A stretch of 24,589 nucleotides of DNA from a virus: the IMG/VR virus record IMGVR_UViG_3300033064_002782, positions 1 through 24,589 of that record; one strand, written 5' to 3'. Below the pieces are notes generated by a model. That model saw nothing but the letters and a program-made list of their open reading frames with translations, had not been told where the DNA came from and did no database searches. Shown in pieces: positions 12,797 through 18,729 of the stretch. The stretch's first letter is position 1, and each line of letters opens with the position of its first letter. A program made the translations under genes and the position numbers.

Positions 12797-13711
12797 CTAT
12801 TCCGCCAATTTTGCGAAATATGACATCGTGTCATCATCCTCTTCATCATAAGAAGAAGACTTAGAAGAACTTAGGTTACTCAGTTCGGTGCGAAGATCTT
12901 CATCAAGTTCACGAACTGGACCACGAGAAGTCTCTTCCTCATCGGCAACTTCGGGGTCTTGACGACGAGTTCCTTTGTTACCAAGAACATAATCAAGACG
13001 CTTCTTCAGTTCATCATAAGTCTTGAACTGATCTGGAGCAATAAGTTCTGCGAGAGAATACTGTTTCTTCCAGATTGCTTCCATCGCATCATCATCGTCC
13101 AGAAGAGCACCTTGTGGGGCAAATTCACTGGAGTCATAGTTACGATAACCGGCAACATTCTTTGCCTTCAGTTTGAAGTTAGCACCCTGCCAGAAGTCAA
13201 AAGGATCGATAGGAGTCTCATCCTGAAACTCTGGTTGCATAGCAGAAGTAATCTTATCAAAGATTTTCTTACCGAACTTATAAAGGAAGACTTTGCCCTC
13301 ATTATCGGGATTGGTAGGATCCTTGACCACATAGATATTGCTGATATAAGTCAGTTTACGTTTCTGCTTACGTGCAAGTTCCTTACCAGCATCAGTACCG
13401 TTGTTCCAAAGTTCGGAGTTTAGTTCACCAACTGGATCTTTCTGTCCAATTGTGCTGAGGTTGTTTTCGATATACCAACCACCAGGTCCTTGGAAGGCAT
13501 GAGAGTAAAGTTTAGCAAAAGGAAGATCTTCCCCATCAGGAGCAGGGAGGAAACGAATGACGGCATAACCATTGCCACTTTTATCACATTCTAAACGCCA
13601 TAACCGATCATCAGAAGAGCTAGAAGAAGAATTCATCTTCTCAACTTCTTTAACAAGTTTGGCAGTGAGAGAACCAAGTTTGGATTGTTTTTTTAAATCT
13701 GAAAAAGACAT
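12797..13711 (-). CDS. 32: Single-stranded DNA-binding protein gp32
   Basis: This gene encodes 304 residues from the ATG at 13711 (M-S-F-S-D-L-K-K-Q). An upstream in-frame ATG at 13771 lies between the -10 box and the expected transcript start, so it is rejected. The basic N-terminal patch S-K-L-G-S-L-T-A-K-L matches the T4 LAST-type cooperativity motif. The OB core has W-R-L, A-V-I-R-F-L-P and W-Y-I-E-N. The C-terminus is the expected acidic tail (D-E-E-D-D-D-T-M-S-Y-F). Where T4 gp32 has its Cys-x-x-Cys zinc ligands, this protein has D-P-V-G, so the zinc site appears lost. It coats single-stranded DNA and recruits gp59 and the helicase. It has its own sigma-70 promoter and a strong terminator, so can be a single-gene unit. 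Confidence 0.93.
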   Translation of the reverse strand: MSFSDLKKQSKLGSLTAKLVKEVEKMNSSSSSSDDRLWRLECDKSGNGYAVIRFLPAPDGEDLPFAKLYSHAFQGPGGWYIENNLSTIGQKDPVGELNSELWNNGTDAGKELARKQKRKLTYISNIYVVKDPTNPDNEGKVFLYKFGKKIFDKITSAMQPEFQDETPIDPFDFWQGANFKLKAKNVAGYRNYDSSEFAPQGALLDDDDAMEAIWKKQYSLAELIAPDQFKTYDELKKRLDYVLGNKGTRRQDPEVADEEETSRGPVRELDEDLRTELSNLSSSKSSSYDEEDDDTMSYFAKLAE

Positions 13712-13773: not shown

Positions 13774-13802
13774 ATTATATATCAGATGCTCTCTGAAGTC
13801 AA
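13774..13802 (-). promoter_or_regulatory. Sigma-70 promoter of gp32, overlapping the end of an endonuclease gene
   Basis: TTGACT at 13802-13797, a 17-base spacer, then TATAAT at 13779-13774. The -35 box is the Leu-Thr codon pair near the end of the upstream homing endonuclease gene, and the -10 lies just after its stop. The expected start is near 13767, giving a leader of about 56 bases. Confidence 0.85.
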
Positions 13803-14456
13803 GTATCTAAGAGTATCCGAACCTAAAATTTTTATTAATTTTCTTTTCCCTCGACAGCACTCCGATAAATGCCCCACATTGCACCCTAGTATTCTAGCAG
13901 ATTCTTTAATACTTTCATATTTGCATATTAAACTACCCCCACTATTAAATCTCCCAACTTCTTTCCTATTTGGATTAGAATATCTTAATTTTTTTCTAGT
14001 TTCTTCGGAATGAATTTTTCCCTTGTTTATCTCACTTAATTTTCTTTTTGTCTCTTCAGATAGTTTATTGCCCAAATGAGATTTTCTCAAGTTCTCAATA
14101 TGTTCTGGAGAGAATTTCATCCCTTTTCTTATTTGTGATATTTTCTTTTTTGTATCTTCGGACATCTCATATTGATTACCACCTTTCATAAGATTATAAC
14201 CATTTGGATACAAAGAGTTTTTTTCTTGTATCCAATATTCTTCTCTATCATTTAATAATTTAACATCACATTCTTCAATAATATTAATAGTAAAATTATC
14301 CCATCCATATTTTCTTATTGCATTATAAAAAGGATTTGTATTTTTATAGGATTTAGCATTGCATCTATGACATCTTATTCTAGACTTAAAATCTTTTGCC
14401 TGACCAACATATATTTTTCCATTAATTTTATTTACAAACTCATATACAACTTTCAT
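13782..14456 (-). CDS. GIY-YIG homing endonuclease 1, with NUMOD3 repeats and a helix-turn-helix module
   Basis: This gene encodes 224 residues. The GIY-YIG nuclease domain covers about 1-90: V-V-Y-E-F (GIY-equivalent), I-Y-V-G-Q (YIG-equivalent), the catalytic Arg region F-K-S-R-I-R, and the metal-binding Glu in L-N-D-R-E-E-Y-W-I. Residues about 97-165 hold NUMOD3 DNA-binding repeats (S-E-D-T-K-K-K-I-S, S-P-E-H-I-E-N-L-R, S-E-E-T-K-R-K-L-S, S-E-E-T-R-K-K-L-R). A NUMOD1/IENR-like module follows (I-K-E-S-A-R-I-L-G-C-N). It is free-standing between gp32 and the DUF1825 gene. It has a late box in a possible hairpin, and its last codons contain the gp32 -35 box. It probably spreads by cutting relatives that lack it at this site. 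Confidence 0.88.
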   Translation of the reverse strand: MKVVYEFVNKINGKIYVGQAKDFKSRIRCHRCNAKSYKNTNPFYNAIRKYGWDNFTINIIEECDVKLLNDREEYWIQEKNSLYPNGYNLMKGGNQYEMSEDTKKKISQIRKGMKFSPEHIENLRKSHLGNKLSEETKRKLSEINKGKIHSEETRKKLRYSNPNRKEVGRFNSGGSLICKYESIKESARILGCNVGHLSECCRGKRKLIKILGSDTLRYLTSESI

Positions 14457-14459
14457 TTT

Positions 14460-14519
14460 TTTATTAACTTCCAGTTTCCATTATTATTTATAACAAGAAT
14501 AGTCTCATCTGTCAATAAA
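14460..14519 (-). promoter_or_regulatory. Late box TATAAATA in the loop of an inverted repeat, before endonuclease 1
   Basis: TATAAATA at 14492-14485 on the minus strand is 29 bases before the ATG. Arms at 14511-14519 and 14460-14468 pair over 9 bp with one G-U, and the 3' arm ends three bases before the ATG. The same box also serves as a -10 for TTGACA at 14515-14510 with a 17-base spacer, so the site could be both a host-type and a late promoter. The arms are AT-rich, so this is the weakest of the three hairpins. Confidence 0.55.
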
Positions 14520-14837
14520 TTGTTTCAGAGACTCAATAGTTTTATTCATACTATTAAAAAGTAAACTAATATCTGTGTCTGGTGGGAATCCCATAATTGC
14601 CACAGATTTTTTCAGATTTTCTTTCATCTCAATCGCTTTTGGGTCATCAGAAAGAGAAAGTCTTGTGTACATAATTCGTTGCTTTTCTAGCAACAAAATC
14701 ATTTTTTCAATGTGTTCTAATTTATTTTCACGGGACATTGAACCGAAAGAAAGAATACTTCCGTAAATGAACCTTTGAAGTTCATTGATTTCTTCAAGTT
14801 CTTCCCGAATCAATTCAGAATCAAAGAATTTACTCAT
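14505..14837 (-). CDS. DUF1825-type small protein
   Basis: This gene encodes 110 residues, mostly helical. Recognisable blocks are M-S-K-F-F-D-S-E, E-E-L-E-E-I-N-E-L-Q, K-L-E-H-I-E-K-M, L-L-E-K-Q-R-I-M-Y-T-R-L-S-L-S-D-D-P-K-A, and G-F-P-P-D-T-D. These match the DUF1825 family of cyanobacteria and their phages, whose function is unknown to me. Its presence is one of the better hints of a cyanobacterial host. It overlaps the gp59 stop by eight bases, so it is probably translated from the gp59 transcript. In T4 nothing similar sits between gp59 and gp32. It is unlikely to be gp33, which is found elsewhere in the window. Confidence 0.8.
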   Translation of the reverse strand: MSKFFDSELIREELEEINELQRFIYGSILSFGSMSRENKLEHIEKMILLLEKQRIMYTRLSLSDDPKAIEMKENLKKSVAIMGFPPDTDISLLFNSMNKTIESLKQFIDR

Positions 14838-15426
14838 TAACTATTTCCCGTAAAAGTTGTTTATATTGGAACACGTTGATATTTAGAAAAGGCTTGTATT
14901 TCCGAATTTTTAAACTTACGGTTTCCCATACAGGATCTATAAGTTTCTTATCAAAGACATTCCCGAACTGAAATAGTATATCATAAATTACTAAGACTTC
15001 AGGTGAAATCTTCCCACCCAGGAATTTTTTTAGAACTGGTGGATGACCTTTCGAACAGTTGAAGGCATCTTCTAATTTGATTTCCGAGAGTAATTCTTCC
15101 GATTGTTCTTTGAACAAGTAGGTCAAACTCTGCTGTCGTTTCATCCACTCTCGGTATGTTTCTTCTCCAAAATTTATAATTTGACCTATCCATATTTGAT
15201 TTACACTGCTAGATTCTATGAAGTTTGCAACCAAGAAATCAACAATCTCTTCGTCTTTATATTTGCGACTTGTTTTCTCGAACCAGTATTTATCGGATCG
15301 GGCATTAAACGATGTTGCAGAGGCACGAACTTTTTTGTTGTATTTGAAGTAATCGTATTTTACATTACTAAAATGTGATTTTAGGGCAAGATATTCAATA
15401 TAAACTTGATAAGGAGTCACCTTCAA
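14830..15426 (-). CDS. 59: DNA helicase loader gp59
   Basis: This gene encodes 198 residues; T4 gp59 has 217. Shared blocks with T4 are the Y-x-x-Y-L-A-L-K start, K-Y-D-Y-F-K-Y-N, R-S-D-K-Y-W-F-E-K followed by R-K-Y-K-D-E-E, an internal I-W-I-G-x-I, and near the C-terminus K-L-I-D-P-V-W-E and K-Y-K-P-F-L-N-I. The protein loads helicase gp41 onto gp32-coated forked DNA. The start is a TTG at 15426; an in-frame TAA lies just upstream, and the next start candidate is the GTG two codons later. Its own sigma-70 promoter lies at 15450-15478, predicting a very short leader. It heads a gp59-DUF1825 pair. Confidence 0.88.
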   Translation of the reverse strand: MKVTPYQVYIEYLALKSHFSNVKYDYFKYNKKVRASATSFNARSDKYWFEKTSRKYKDEEIVDFLVANFIESSSVNQIWIGQIINFGEETYREWMKRQQSLTYLFKEQSEELLSEIKLEDAFNCSKGHPPVLKKFLGGKISPEVLVIYDILFQFGNVFDKKLIDPVWETVSLKIRKYKPFLNINVFQYKQLLREIVNE

Positions 15427-15449
15427 TTTCTTACATTATAACTCTATGT

Positions 15450-15478
15450 ATTATAGCACGAACTCTGGGTGGAGTCAA
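15450..15478 (-). promoter_or_regulatory. Sigma-70 promoter of gp59, joined to the end of endonuclease 2
   Basis: TTGACT at 15478-15473, a 17-base spacer, then TATAAT at 15455-15450. The TGA stop of the upstream homing endonuclease gene is inside the -35 hexamer. A second TATAAT lies at 15440-15435. Expected leader to the TTG start is about 17 bases. Confidence 0.85.
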
Positions 15479-16137
15479 GACTCCAGATCCAGAGGCGCAT
15501 TTTCAAGGTTTTTCATTAGGTCACGTTGTCTTTGATATTCTATTAATCTTTCTCTATTTTTTTGATAATACTGTTTATGATATTCTCTTAATTTTTCTTT
15601 ATTTTTTATTTGATATTGTTTTTGAACTTCTCTTATTGTTTCTTTATTTTTTTCTCTATATTTTTTATTAACTTCTTTTTTTGTTTTACTATTTCTACCT
15701 TTTTCATTTAATTTTTCTTTATTATTATCTCTATATTTTTTCTTAATTTCCTTTACTCTTTCTCCATTTTCCTCCACCCATTTATCATAAGTTTCTTTTC
15801 CCTTTTTGGATTGTTGATATTTTTTTACAGATTCAATTCTCAATTTTTCTTTTTCTTCTTTACTTCTTATTAAACTTGCTCTATTTTTTCCACCAATGCT
15901 TCTGTTAATCAGAATACCACCCTCACTTTTTCTTTTATATACGGATATTAACTCCTCTTCAAATAAGTAACTTTCTTCTTCATTATCAAAATATTTAACT
16001 ATTACTATTCTATCCTTTGGTGGAGGAGAAATCCATCTTTTTCCCCAAGTATGCTTCACATATGCCCTGTATTCTTTACCTTTACCGACATAATAAGGAG
16101 TTCGGTCTTCCCTTACCCAGAGATAAACATAGTACAT
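15475..16137 (-). CDS. GIY-YIG homing endonuclease 2, with Lys/Glu/Tyr-rich repeat tail
   Basis: This gene encodes 220 residues. The N-terminal nuclease has Y-V-Y-L-W (GIY-equivalent), P-Y-Y-V-G-K-G (YIG-equivalent), a basic catalytic region (R-A-Y-V-K-H) and E-E-E-L-I for the metal-binding Glu. Residues about 125-210 form a charged repeat (N-K-E-K-L-R-E-Y-H-K-Q-Y-Y-Q-K-N style, about 12-14 residues per unit), commonly found behind GIY-YIG or HNH nucleases as a DNA-contacting helix. The coding DNA there is extremely A-rich on its strand, unlike gp59 and gp33, suggesting separate origin. It sits between gp33 and gp59. It has a late promoter in a hairpin loop, and its stop codon lies inside the gp59 -35 box. 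Confidence 0.82.
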   Translation of the reverse strand: MYYVYLWVREDRTPYYVGKGKEYRAYVKHTWGKRWISPPPKDRIVIVKYFDNEEESYLFEEELISVYKRKSEGGILINRSIGGKNRASLIRSKEEKEKLRIESVKKYQQSKKGKETYDKWVEENGERVKEIKKKYRDNNKEKLNEKGRNSKTKKEVNKKYREKNKETIREVQKQYQIKNKEKLREYHKQYYQKNRERLIEYQRQRDLMKNLENAPLDLES

Positions 16138-16146
16138 TTCTGCTCT

Positions 16147-16226
16147 TAAGTTGGGTGCATTACTATTTATACAAGAAAAGAGGCATTACTGCCCCTAATC
16201 TACCTGTGAAGATTGCACCCAACTCA
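16147..16226 (-). promoter_or_regulatory. Late box TATAAATA in the loop of a 13-bp inverted repeat, before endonuclease 2
   Basis: TATAAATA at 16171-16164 is 27 bases before the ATG. Arms at 16214-16226 and 16147-16159 pair over 13 bp with one G-U. The 54-base loop contains both the box and the gp33 terminator. The 3' arm ends nine bases before the ATG, next to the AAGAG ribosome site. Confidence 0.7.
16176..16195 (-). terminator. Intrinsic terminator after gp33
   Basis: On the minus strand GGGGCA/TGCCTC (6 bp, one G-U) closes a GTAA tetraloop and is followed by TTTT. It separates gp33 from the late box of endonuclease 2, which begins four bases further on. The T-run is short, so some readthrough is likely. 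Confidence 0.7.
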
Positions 16227-16248
16227 GGCATTATTATATAGTTTAGTA

Positions 16249-16509
16249 TTAAAGAGGCAATTTTGCCTTCGAAGTTTTTTTCATAAAATTCAGATTGATA
16301 GCATCATACTTCAATCTTTCTTTGAGGGGTTTTGATACCAATTTCGTAATTGAATCTACCTCAATCTTATTGATCTCACAATAATGGCAAATAGCATCAA
16401 TGTAGTTACATTTTTCTTCTGCAACAATCTTTTCTACTTCCAGTGCAAATTTAGAAGGAGTTAGAAACTTATCCTCTATTGCCTTTTCTAATTCCTTGTT
16501 AGGTTCCAT
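16249..16509 (-). CDS. 33: Late transcription co-activator gp33
   Basis: This gene encodes 86 residues from the ATG at 16509 (M-E-P-N-K-E-L-E-K-A). A longer open frame upstream is out of phase with, and inside, the exonuclease gene, so this start is chosen; it overlaps that gene by 11 bases. The core F-A-L-E-V-E-K-I-V-A-E-E, Y-I-D-A-I-C-H-Y-C-E-I-N-K-I-E-V, followed by K-L-V-S-K-P-L-K-E-R-L, parallels T4 gp33 (I-I-E-K-M-V-E-E, Y-L-E-A-T, E-E-N-S-I, I-P-S-G-I-I-E-K-I). gp33 links host RNA polymerase to the sliding clamp at late promoters. It is thus the likely activator of the late boxes in this window. It is shorter than T4 gp33 (112 residues). Confidence 0.82.
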   Translation of the reverse strand: MEPNKELEKAIEDKFLTPSKFALEVEKIVAEEKCNYIDAICHYCEINKIEVDSITKLVSKPLKERLKYDAINLNFMKKTSKAKLPL

Positions 16510-17182
16510 ACTGCTCAAGTTTATCTCCAACAAATTTTCTAATATATTGGACGAGTAATTTAAGGTACTTTGCTTTGTCGTATTCTTCATAAACAACACA
16601 TTCTCCATTTTCACAAGACATAATGATAACAAATTTTTTGACTGGTATCTCAGTCAGTTCGTAGTACATTGCTGCATAAGCACAGCACTGAACAAAATAA
16701 TGATCAATCCACTCGCGTGGTTTGGGTTTCTTAGAAGTTTTAAAGTCGATAATTGCTAATTCGCCGTTGTATTCTGCAATACAATCCGTCGTTCCTGCAA
16801 TACCCAATTGCTTACTATATAGGGAACCTTCTAAACAGTGAATATTATCAATATTTTTAAGTTCAGACTTAGAAATATTAAACAGAAACTCCGAGATTGG
16901 AAGAATATCTGTAGGAAGATCTTGATTTTTCAGAAAATACTCAGTAAGAGTATGAGTATCCGTACCACGACTTGTTGCAAGTTTCGTGATACGGTCTGCT
17001 TCTACATCTCCAACCCTCTTTCGCCATTTCACAAAGATTTCCTTGTTGAAATGACTTGTAATGGAAGTGATTGAAACTAACTTGAGAAATTCTTCATCTT
17101 CGCCAGGAACTTTATAATAACGAACACCATCTATAGTCTCCCGATCAAGTTTCGGGAGAGTCACATCAACATGATTGAACAT
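16499..17182 (-). CDS. PD-(D/E)XK exonuclease, RecB/Cas4-like
   Basis: This gene encodes 227 residues. The motifs are: R-G-T-D-T-H (72-77), the conserved early motif of this nuclease group; G-T-T-D (Asp133); I-I-D-F-K-T-S-K (Asp146, Lys148); and the downstream Q-C-C-A-Y (Gln165, Tyr169), the QxxxY motif. The protein lacks a helicase domain. The likely role is DNA end processing in phage recombination or host DNA breakdown. The ATG overlaps the stop of endonuclease 3 as TAATG. Its ribosome site (GAGG, five bases upstream) and sigma-70 promoter are both inside the coding end of endonuclease 3. It overlaps gp33 by 11 bases, so the two are probably co-expressed. Confidence 0.85.
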   Translation of the reverse strand: MFNHVDVTLPKLDRETIDGVRYYKVPGEDEEFLKLVSITSITSHFNKEIFVKWRKRVGDVEADRITKLATSRGTDTHTLTEYFLKNQDLPTDILPISEFLFNISKSELKNIDNIHCLEGSLYSKQLGIAGTTDCIAEYNGELAIIDFKTSKKPKPREWIDHYFVQCCAYAAMYYELTEIPVKKFVIIMSCENGECVVYEEYDKAKYLKLLVQYIRKFVGDKLEQYGT

Positions 17183-17907
17183 TAAAACCTCACTCTCCCT
17201 TTATTATAACCCATAGGTATAGATTCGTCAATTGTTATAAGTTTTTCTTCAGTTCCATTATTGACCCAAATTCTTTTGGGACGATTTTTTGCTTTTTGTT
17301 TTATTTTTTCAATAGTTTCTGGAGAATGTTTTTTCCCATACATAGGATTATTTTCTCCATTCACATCGTGGTGATTTTCACTTATTTTTTTTCTAGTTTC
17401 TTCACTAGCAATTTTACCAAGACTTAATTGACGTAATTTTTCAATAGTTTCTGGACTGAATTTCCTACCAATTAACCAAGGTTTAGATTTCCCTTTAGAT
17501 GCCTCACTCATCTTTTTTTTAGTTTCATCACTATGCATTTTACCATACATACCAACTTTTTTCTCTTTATGAAGTTGTTTAACTCTTTCAGAGCATTCTT
17601 GCCGATATTCTTCAGTTGCTTCCCAACCAAAAATTCCATCACCACCATCAGTTATATTATAACCATAAGGAACTTTACTATTATATTCTTTAATATAATA
17701 TTGCTCCAATTCATATGCTCTTCCAGCAGTATCAACTTCTTCAATCAATTCAATAGAAAACTTATCTTCACCATATTTTTTGATTGCTTCAGTTAAAATA
17801 AATCCTCTTTTGGTATGTTGATAAAATCTTTCAGTGATGGAAAATTTGGTTATTCCGACATACTGTTTTTTATTTTCAAGATTATTAATTAAGTAAATTT
17901 TATACAT
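17182..17907 (-). CDS. GIY-YIG homing endonuclease 3, with NUMOD3 repeats
   Basis: This gene encodes 241 residues. The nuclease domain has Y-K-I-Y-L (GIY-equivalent), Q-Y-V-G-I-T (YIG-equivalent), an Arg in T-E-R-F-Y-Q-H, and the metal Glu in Y-E-L-E-Q-Y-Y-I. A glycine-rich turn Y-G-Y-N-I-T-D-G-G-D-G ends the domain near residue 92. Three to four NUMOD3 repeats follow (H-S-D-E-T-K-K-K-M, F-S-P-E-T-I-E-K-L, A-S-E-E-T-R-K-K-I, H-S-P-E-T-I-E-K-I), which contact the target DNA. It lies between phoH and the exonuclease gene. The start is preceded by a strong hairpin holding a late promoter. The last 17 codons contain the whole sigma-70 promoter and ribosome site of the exonuclease. Confidence 0.88.
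   Translation of the reverse strand: MYKIYLINNLENKKQYVGITKFSITERFYQHTKRGFILTEAIKKYGEDKFSIELIEEVDTAGRAYELEQYYIKEYNSKVPYGYNITDGGDGIFGWEATEEYRQECSERVKQLHKEKKVGMYGKMHSDETKKKMSEASKGKSKPWLIGRKFSPETIEKLRQLSLGKIASEETRKKISENHHDVNGENNPMYGKKHSPETIEKIKQKAKNRPKRIWVNNGTEEKLITIDESIPMGYNKGRVRF
17203..17231 (-). promoter_or_regulatory. Sigma-70 promoter of the exonuclease, fully inside endonuclease 3 coding sequence
   Basis: TTGACG at 17231-17226, a 17-base spacer, then TATAAT at 17208-17203. The -10 is read as part of Gly-Tyr-Asn in the endonuclease. Expected start near 17196 leaves a leader of about 14 bases containing GAGG at 17191-17188. Confidence 0.8.
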
Positions 17908-17967
17908 TATCTAACTCATAAAAGGTTATAATTATTTATATAAATCTAAACTTCCACGAGTTAGACA
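17908..17967 (-). promoter_or_regulatory. Late box TATAAATA in the loop of a 17-bp hairpin abutting the start of endonuclease 3
   Basis: TATAAATA at 17940-17933 is 26 bases before the ATG. Minus-strand arms 17967-17951 and 17924-17908 pair over 17 continuous bp (perfect core TCTAACTC/GAGTTAGA, four G-U pairs outside it). The 26-base loop holds the late box, and the 3' arm ends directly against the ATG. A transcript from phoH would carry both arms, while one starting at the late box would carry only the 3' arm. Confidence 0.75.
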
Positions 17968-17973
17968 TATAAT

Positions 17974-18729
17974 TCAAAGATTTAATGTTTCTTTAGCAAT
18001 TAGAAATTCCTTAACTAATCCAGAACGAACAATATCATCAATACCAAACTCAATTATATCTAAAGAAGGCATCGTTCTCAAAATTTTCATAAAGTCAATT
18101 ACGCCATTCTTCTCGTTTGTTTTAATCAAATCGGATTGAGTAGCATCTCCACAGAACATAATCTTAGAGTTTTCACCAACACGAGTGATAATAGAACATA
18201 ATTCGTGGAAATTTGCGTTTTGGAATTCATCTACAATCACAATCGAATTATCAAGTGTGGTTCCTCTTAAGAATGAAGTACTCCAGAACTTAATCGTCTC
18301 CTGTGACTTAAGATTACCATAAAGCATCTCAAACTCAGCATCAGAAGGCATCTGGAACATATACTTCACCATATTCTTATAAGGAATCTGGTAGATGTCT
18401 GACTTATCCTCATAGGAACCAGGGAGGAAACCAATCTCCCTTGTAGCAACCAAAGAACGAACCAGATAGATTTTCTCATAAGGAGTTTTTTCATCAAGAA
18501 CTTCACGGAGAGCATTATAAAGAGTGATGAAAGTCTTACCAGTTCCTGCACAACCATATGCGACAAGATGCTTGCCTTCGGCATATGCATCAAAAAGTTT
18601 TCTTTGATTGTCTGTGAGTGGTTCAATATCTAATAGATACTCATTCCCAAGTGCTTTCTTTTTCTTTGTCTGTCGGGTTGTAAGATCAACACCATTTTGC
18701 TGATCGTTCGTCCTTTTTCTTCTTGCCAT
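17974..18729 (-). CDS. phoH: PhoH-like ATPase
   Basis: This gene encodes 251 residues. Walker A is G-C-A-G-T-G-K-T (59-66), Walker B is I-V-I-V-D-E-F-Q-N, and a later F-C-G-D-A-T-Q-S-D motif is typical of the PhoH family. The N-terminus is a short basic tail, and I-E-P-L-T-D-N-Q begins the domain. Cyanophage phoH is a common auxiliary gene in marine phages; its role is not firmly known, with RNA or phosphate-stress functions proposed. It follows a small gene by ten bases and is probably co-transcribed with it. No terminator is seen between phoH and endonuclease 3. Confidence 0.92.
   Translation of the reverse strand: MARRKRTNDQQNGVDLTTRQTKKKKALGNEYLLDIEPLTDNQRKLFDAYAEGKHLVAYGCAGTGKTFITLYNALREVLDEKTPYEKIYLVRSLVATREIGFLPGSYEDKSDIYQIPYKNMVKYMFQMPSDAEFEMLYGNLKSQETIKFWSTSFLRGTTLDNSIVIVDEFQNANFHELCSIITRVGENSKIMFCGDATQSDLIKTNEKNGVIDFMKILRTMPSLDIIEFGIDDIVRSGLVKEFLIAKETLNL

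Follow-up and report, generated by a model that had tools for sequence, protein, structure and literature searches.

Homing endonuclease genes in a T4-like cyanophage replication operon: promoter sequences at their 3' ends that probably arrive with the elements, and predicted hairpin leaders at their 5' ends

In phage T4, the promoters of gene 32 lie within segG, a homing endonuclease gene (HEG), and segA, segE, mobB and mobC show a similar arrangement, which is held to favour retention of the endonuclease gene (PMC2988022). In addition, I-TevI, I-TevII, I-TevIII, segB and Aeh1 mobE are controlled by hairpins and late promoters, with the hairpin of the early transcript hiding the ribosome site of the HEG and late transcripts being unable to form it (PMC2988022). 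Here we describe a 24,589-base virus record (IMGVR_UViG_3300033064_002782, analysed over its whole length and called the window below), whose closest isolates are the T4-like cyanophages S-SRM01 and S-SKS1. All features of this study are on the minus strand, in the order phoH, HEG3, exonuclease gene (exo), gp33, HEG2, gp59, DUF1825, HEG1 and gp32. The three HEGs lie outside introns and inteins, and each fills an intergenic junction left empty in relatives. We consider it probable that they are mobile cassettes with regulatory sequence at both ends, of which the 3' end would supply a promoter for the next replication gene.

As the initial annotation had claimed, three boxes of the form TTGAC-N17-TATAAT overlap the 3' ends of the HEGs, each in its own way. 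HEG1 (13782..14456) spans the -35 and most of the spacer of the gp32 box (TTGACT-N17-TATAAT, 13774..13802), with its TGA stop within the spacer, and the box is placed alike in a relative, L299. The TGA stop of HEG2 (gene at 15475..16137, stop at 15477-15475) falls within the -35 of the gp59 box (TTGACT-N17-TATAAT with an extended -10, TGC; 15450..15478). The exo box (TTGACG-N17-TATAAT, 17203..17231) lies entirely within HEG3 (17182..17907), which also holds a putative ribosome-binding sequence for exo, GTGAGG (17188..17193), and whose stop overlaps the exo ATG. Scored as a simple consensus match out of the 12 hexamer positions, all three sigma-70-type boxes reached 11/12 with a 17-base spacer. 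On the minus strand between 12797 and 24360 there are 4 sites of at least 11/12 with this spacer, vs. a mean of 0.095 in dinucleotide shuffles; such a site is expected by chance at 8e-4 per given 100-base upstream window and in three windows out of three at about 6e-10, which bears out the view that the repeated 17-base spacing is hard to attribute to chance. The fourth match (TTGAGA-N17-TATAAT, 18081-18053) lies in the 3' end of phoH upstream of HEG3, and HEG-free relatives often retain GATATAAT in this region (18053-18081), perhaps as a promoter for exo from within phoH; HEG-free phages commonly show a TATAAT-like codon run within the phoH 3' end, with a full promoter there being inconsistent. 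We also noticed that, between 17182 and 17270, the -10 box and a purine-rich ribosome site are both formed by the C-terminal PMGYNKGR codons of HEG3; other HEGs have similar P-x-G-Y/F-x-x-G-R tails, which might be predisposed to turn into promoters.

The comparison with endonuclease-free relatives, which the initial annotation had proposed, drew on about 230 viral contigs fetched with gp32, exo and gp59, with further ones obtained via the three HEGs. L-numbers denote these contigs, many of them metagenomic and with related contigs counted more than once; a promoter was called in a junction if a site of at least 10/12 lay within 100 bases upstream of the gene. Where no HEG is present, the end of phoH runs into the start of exo (TAATG), gp33 shares 1-7 bases with gp59, and a gap of about 64 bases separates DUF1825 from gp32. 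All 158 unique HEG-free gp32 junctions had the promoter, 157 of them with a 17-base spacer; the gp59 promoter was found in 0/103 (just upstream of the gene) and the exo promoter in 7/92, all of these being 10/12 sites with 16-base spacing; the count for gp33 was 2/127. Pooling the exo, gp33 and gp59 junctions, a promoter was present in 34 of the 40 with a HEG insert vs. 9/322 with no insert and 3/23 with a non-HEG insert (oxygenase-like and other genes, classed by eye), and HEG-bearing gp32 junctions had one in 8/8. Similarly, 45 of 66 HEG-like open reading frames (ORFs) have a promoter at the 3' end, vs. 197 of 1481 other ORFs, and across the HEG-like ORFs the spacing between the end of the -10 and the stop codon takes about nine different values, which argues for repeated promoter acquisition. 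Judged by these comparisons, a promoter of this kind is ancestral at gp32 but not at gp59 or exo, suggesting that HEG2 and HEG3 brought theirs; of the two options in the initial annotation, the one in which the elements bring a replacement promoter fits gp59 and exo, and insertion exactly at a promoter fits HEG1, gp59 and exo having none just upstream in close HEG-free relatives. HEG1 lies on the ancestral gp32 promoter (TTGACA-N17-TATAAA, 14487..14515), which aligns upstream of HEG1 with the TTGACA-N17-TATAAT of the HEG-free contigs L006, L087 and L088. Other HEGs at gp32 also sit in or at the old promoter, with this virus and L299 retaining TTGACA plus a TATAAA(TA) box upstream and L001, L196 and L297 retaining mainly the -35. 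Since the old promoter persists upstream of HEG1, the downstream one appears to be an additional, second promoter.

The gp33-gp59 junction is an insertion hot spot for both HEG and non-HEG genes; in L013, L041, L061, L126 and others it holds an ORF of about 65 residues that overlaps the gp59 start and comes without a promoter.

The promoter at these 3' ends also shows constraint and outlasts the gene that carries it. Among 14 unique HEG3 tails, drawn from proteins down to about 70% identity, 0/12 hexamer positions vary vs. 34/78 other positions, and the Asp codon in the -35 is GAC in 14/14 tails vs. 9/89 Asp codons elsewhere in these genes; a blastn search of the HEG3 tail against a phage collection gave no match. 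In other contigs we observed promoter footprints in five distinct forms (L123/L223, L182, L102, L090 and L209). In L123 and L223 an L114-type HEG insert is reduced to its final 120 bases, with the promoter still in place and the HEG body gone, and the L123 remnant includes the last 16 codons of that HEG; in L182 a HEG leader is joined to the same tail codons, a fusion that on its sequence is an internal deletion; L209 keeps about the last 28 codons of HEG3 with TTGACG-N17-TATAAT; and what is left in L102 and L090 is a shorter tail, from an L098-type HEG. With the body lost and the promoter tail kept, it is the promoter that outlasts the endonuclease, so that the tail, and not the endonuclease, seems to be protected. 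The proposal in the initial annotation, that the element would be stabilised because its 3' end cannot be lost without damage to an essential gene, therefore stands for the tail and fails for the HEG body, which has gone from all five forms.

Movement of the elements has left its mark on the flanking genes. Over most of its length the window is 95-100% identical to L087 and L088, both HEG-free, but beside the HEGs the identity is about 56-90%, in the final ~280 bases of phoH and in the opening 240 and 120 bases of gp59 and gp32, respectively. The gp32 tract (13592..13711) is 60-80% identical to HEG-free relatives and 98-100% to L299, which has both HEG1 (96%) and these first 120 bases in common with this virus, and the rest of gp32 is mostly 95-100% identical to the very relatives that differ in the tract. 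Likewise, the gp59 tract (15187..15426) is 57-62% identical to L087/L088 and 97-100% to L163, which shares HEG2 (99%) together with the first 240 bases of gp59. In the phoH tract beside HEG3, identity to L087/L088 drops to 56-90% in the last bins from 90-100% before. Such mosaic tracts are as homing with co-conversion predicts and suggest recent homing, the gp32 and gp59 tracts apparently having been co-converted and travelling with HEG1 and HEG2, respectively.

At the other end of the cassette, each HEG in the window is preceded by TATAAATA; the minus strand has six copies in all, of which these are three. In cyanomyoviruses, NATAAATA is reported to be the late promoter and sigma-70-like sites the early promoters (PMC2984593). 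The copy upstream of HEG1 is at 14485..14492. In the HEG2 leader, a 5' arm (AGTTGGGTGCA, 16214..16224) and a 3' arm (TGCACCCAACT, 16149..16159) enclose a loop with the late promoter TATAAATA (16164..16171) and, ahead of a T-rich run, a terminator-like hairpin, AGGGGCAGTAATGCCTCT (16179..16196), and the leader fold has a z of -5.0. The HEG3 leader (fold z -6.1) has its 5' arm TCTAACTC at 17958..17965, the late promoter TATAAATA in the loop at 17933..17940 and its 3' arm GAGTTAGA at 17910..17917. If the late promoters have T4-like geometry, late transcripts would begin about at the leader 3' arm. In both leaders, the late promoter is accordingly placed such that late transcripts are predicted from geometry to miss the 5' arm of the hairpin. 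This anatomy recurs in other phages, in which the arm sequences differ yet stay complementary: stems of at least 10 bp around NATAAATA occur at 26 sites vs. 0.5 after flank permutation, and NATAAATA with an inverted repeat of at least 8 lies upstream of 43/66 HEG-like ORFs vs. 7/1481 other ORFs. S-SRM01 has six such leaders, each followed by a long ORF that either resembles a HEG or bears an endonuclease annotation; near the 3' ends of 4 of these ORFs lies a promoter-like site scoring at least 10/12. The same phage, whose host is Synechococcus KCZYC6, has a HEG ahead of gp32 with a 12/12 promoter. A search of the window with Rfam gave no convincing match, only two sub-threshold ones that are probably due to chance.

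Two further groups of ORFs touch on these leaders. At the gp59-DUF1825 junction, L020, L033, L074, L155 and L157 have possibly HEG-derived ORFs of 100-135 residues that start with MLxVSxIN, some of which have a hairpin/NATAAATA-type leader with GTAGGGGTA arms. S-SRM01 gp114 (L361 12716-13474) is annotated as 'translation initiation factor 2' but follows a HEG-type leader, and its start resembles that of a GIY-YIG HEG (MVNPNRFYTYAYLREDRTPYYIGKG).

We surmise that the two ends act together. At the 5' end, the leader would enclose the late promoter NATAAATA in a hairpin, the 3' arm of which adjoins the HEG start. Early read-through transcripts would fold there, imposing a translational block, or stop at the leader, and endonuclease expression would be confined to late transcripts, which would begin about at the 3' arm. 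If the HEG is silent until late infection, as predicted from the leader, the next gene needs a promoter of its own, and the putative sigma-70 promoter, which overlaps the end of the HEG coding sequence or follows it closely and comes with a ribosome site of its own, would drive the next replication gene, making up for the read-through and translational coupling broken by the insertion. Cassette, promoter and part of the flanking gene may then spread jointly by homing and co-conversion. Once the endonuclease decays, its body would be deleted and the promoter tail would stay, presumably for the selective reason that the next gene depends on it.

Other explanations of the boxes have to be set against this one. 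The promoters might be ancestral, with the HEGs merely inserted just upstream of them. This is partly true at gp32, where every HEG-free relative has the promoter and HEG1 lies on it, and even there the old promoter still stands upstream of HEG1, leaving the downstream one as an extra. For gp59 and exo the idea is already contradicted by the dearth of sites in HEG-free gp59, gp33 and exo junctions, and the HEG-free genes overlap, so that there is no room for an intergenic promoter; as a general account, we regard it as improbable. We are equally reluctant to accept that the short promoter-bearing intergenic regions of L209, L123 and L102, which have the same promoters as their HEG-bearing relatives, are the original state into which HEGs were inserted later, since L209 and L123 contain final HEG codons and the leader-tail fusion of L182 points to internal deletion. 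A slightly less probable view still is that the boxes are functionless by-products of AT-rich C-terminal codons, P-x-G-Y-N-K-G-R giving TATAAT and a purine-rich ribosome site. The -10 in HEG3 is indeed encoded by the GYNKGR motif, and C-terminal motifs like it are found in other HEGs (L315, L203). Yet the hexamers are invariant while third positions elsewhere vary, down to the uniform GAC; the 17-base spacing is constant; the footprints retain the promoter once its coding role is gone; and non-HEG inserts come without one.

Several points weigh against the two-ended cassette that we favour. In 6/40 HEG junctions there is no promoter, and in several of these the HEG instead overlaps the next start codon. 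The junction counts take in related contigs, so that p-values overstate independence, and it is in metagenomic contigs that the footprints were seen. In HEG-free phages exo may be transcribed from a promoter inside phoH, and its ancestral state may thus not have been promoterless. As regards the leaders, the fold of the HEG1 leader falls short of significance (z -1.65), and the terminator-like hairpin of HEG2-type leaders is absent from HEG3-type leaders.

The identities of the genes rest on several kinds of match. The Pfam GIY-YIG catalytic domain (PF01541) was found in HEG1 and HEG3; HEG1 is a GIY-YIG/NUMOD3 HEG (PF01541, PF07460; PHROG homing endonuclease), as is HEG3 by Pfam and PHROG. HEG2 (phrog_10829) gave no match in the Pfam search and is probably a GIY-YIG HEG by motif and conservation, with the invariant pattern YVYL...YYVGKG...R...E. 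A sequence search of HEG2 against solved structures returned a single weak GIY-YIG match (E 0.23) plus RecA matches, which we set aside as coil-like artefacts, and its predicted structure is of low confidence (mean pLDDT 69, pTM 0.31), with meaningless Foldseek matches. The neighbouring genes are the single-stranded DNA-binding protein gp32 (12797..13711; Pfam gp32, E 3e-50), DUF1825 (14505..14837; PF08855), the helicase loader gp59, with a TTG start (14830..15426; Pfam T4_Gp59), the late-transcription coactivator gp33 (16249..16524; PF16805), the PD-(D/E)XK exonuclease exo (16499..17182; PF12705) and phoH (17974..18729). In S-SKS1 the phoH sequence is there by tblastn (L002 4501-5259), yet it is unannotated in NC_020851.

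The principle of a HEG bearing its neighbour's promoter is already published for T4 segG/gene 32, and the retention idea of the initial annotation is likewise in print for that pair and for other seg and mob genes (PMC2988022). As far as the open-access literature searched shows, what is new is the comparative evidence for a promoter arriving with the element at junctions previously lacking one, the footprints and a leader shared among cyanophage HEGs. The idea voiced for T4 can here be put to a comparative test, with empty, occupied and decayed junctions as natural states, and, to judge from the decayed ones, protection by the embedded promoter extends to the tail only. The two-ended cassette would also explain simply how tightly coupled replication operons can tolerate HEG insertions, and it provides a candidate structured RNA leader common to several HEG families in cyanophages. 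Whether cyanophage HEGs at large are two-ended regulatory cassettes whose tail outlives the endonuclease, promoter-delivery vehicles that permanently rewire essential operons, with a leader forming a new class of RNA element, is a wider proposition on which we are evenly divided.

Among known systems, F-CphI near psbA of S-PM2 is likewise a free-standing HEG of a T4-like cyanophage; it differs in its nuclease family (Endo VII motif) and in its psbA intron context, and the sections of the source drawn on here describe no replication-gene promoter (PMC6083498). The I-TevI-type leaders are alike in having a hairpin with a late promoter in or near it, a feature predicted here from fold and geometry; unlike them, the present leader recurs at many junctions among several HEG families, its arms varying in sequence, and its HEG2-type form has a terminator-like hairpin in the loop. 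The nearest likeness is T4 segG, in a gene order confirmed as 33-59-segG-32 with a TATAAATA near the segG 3' end. Like HEG1, segG is a free-standing GIY-YIG HEG at the junction before gene 32, and the gene 32 promoters lie inside it; orthology of HEG1 and SegG is unsupported (21% identity, E 0.049). The gene 32 promoters in segG are middle and late, whereas those described here are of sigma-70 type, and, unlike in T4, three HEGs share a single operon, two of the junctions they fill lack an ancestral promoter immediately upstream, and promoter footprints persist after HEG loss.

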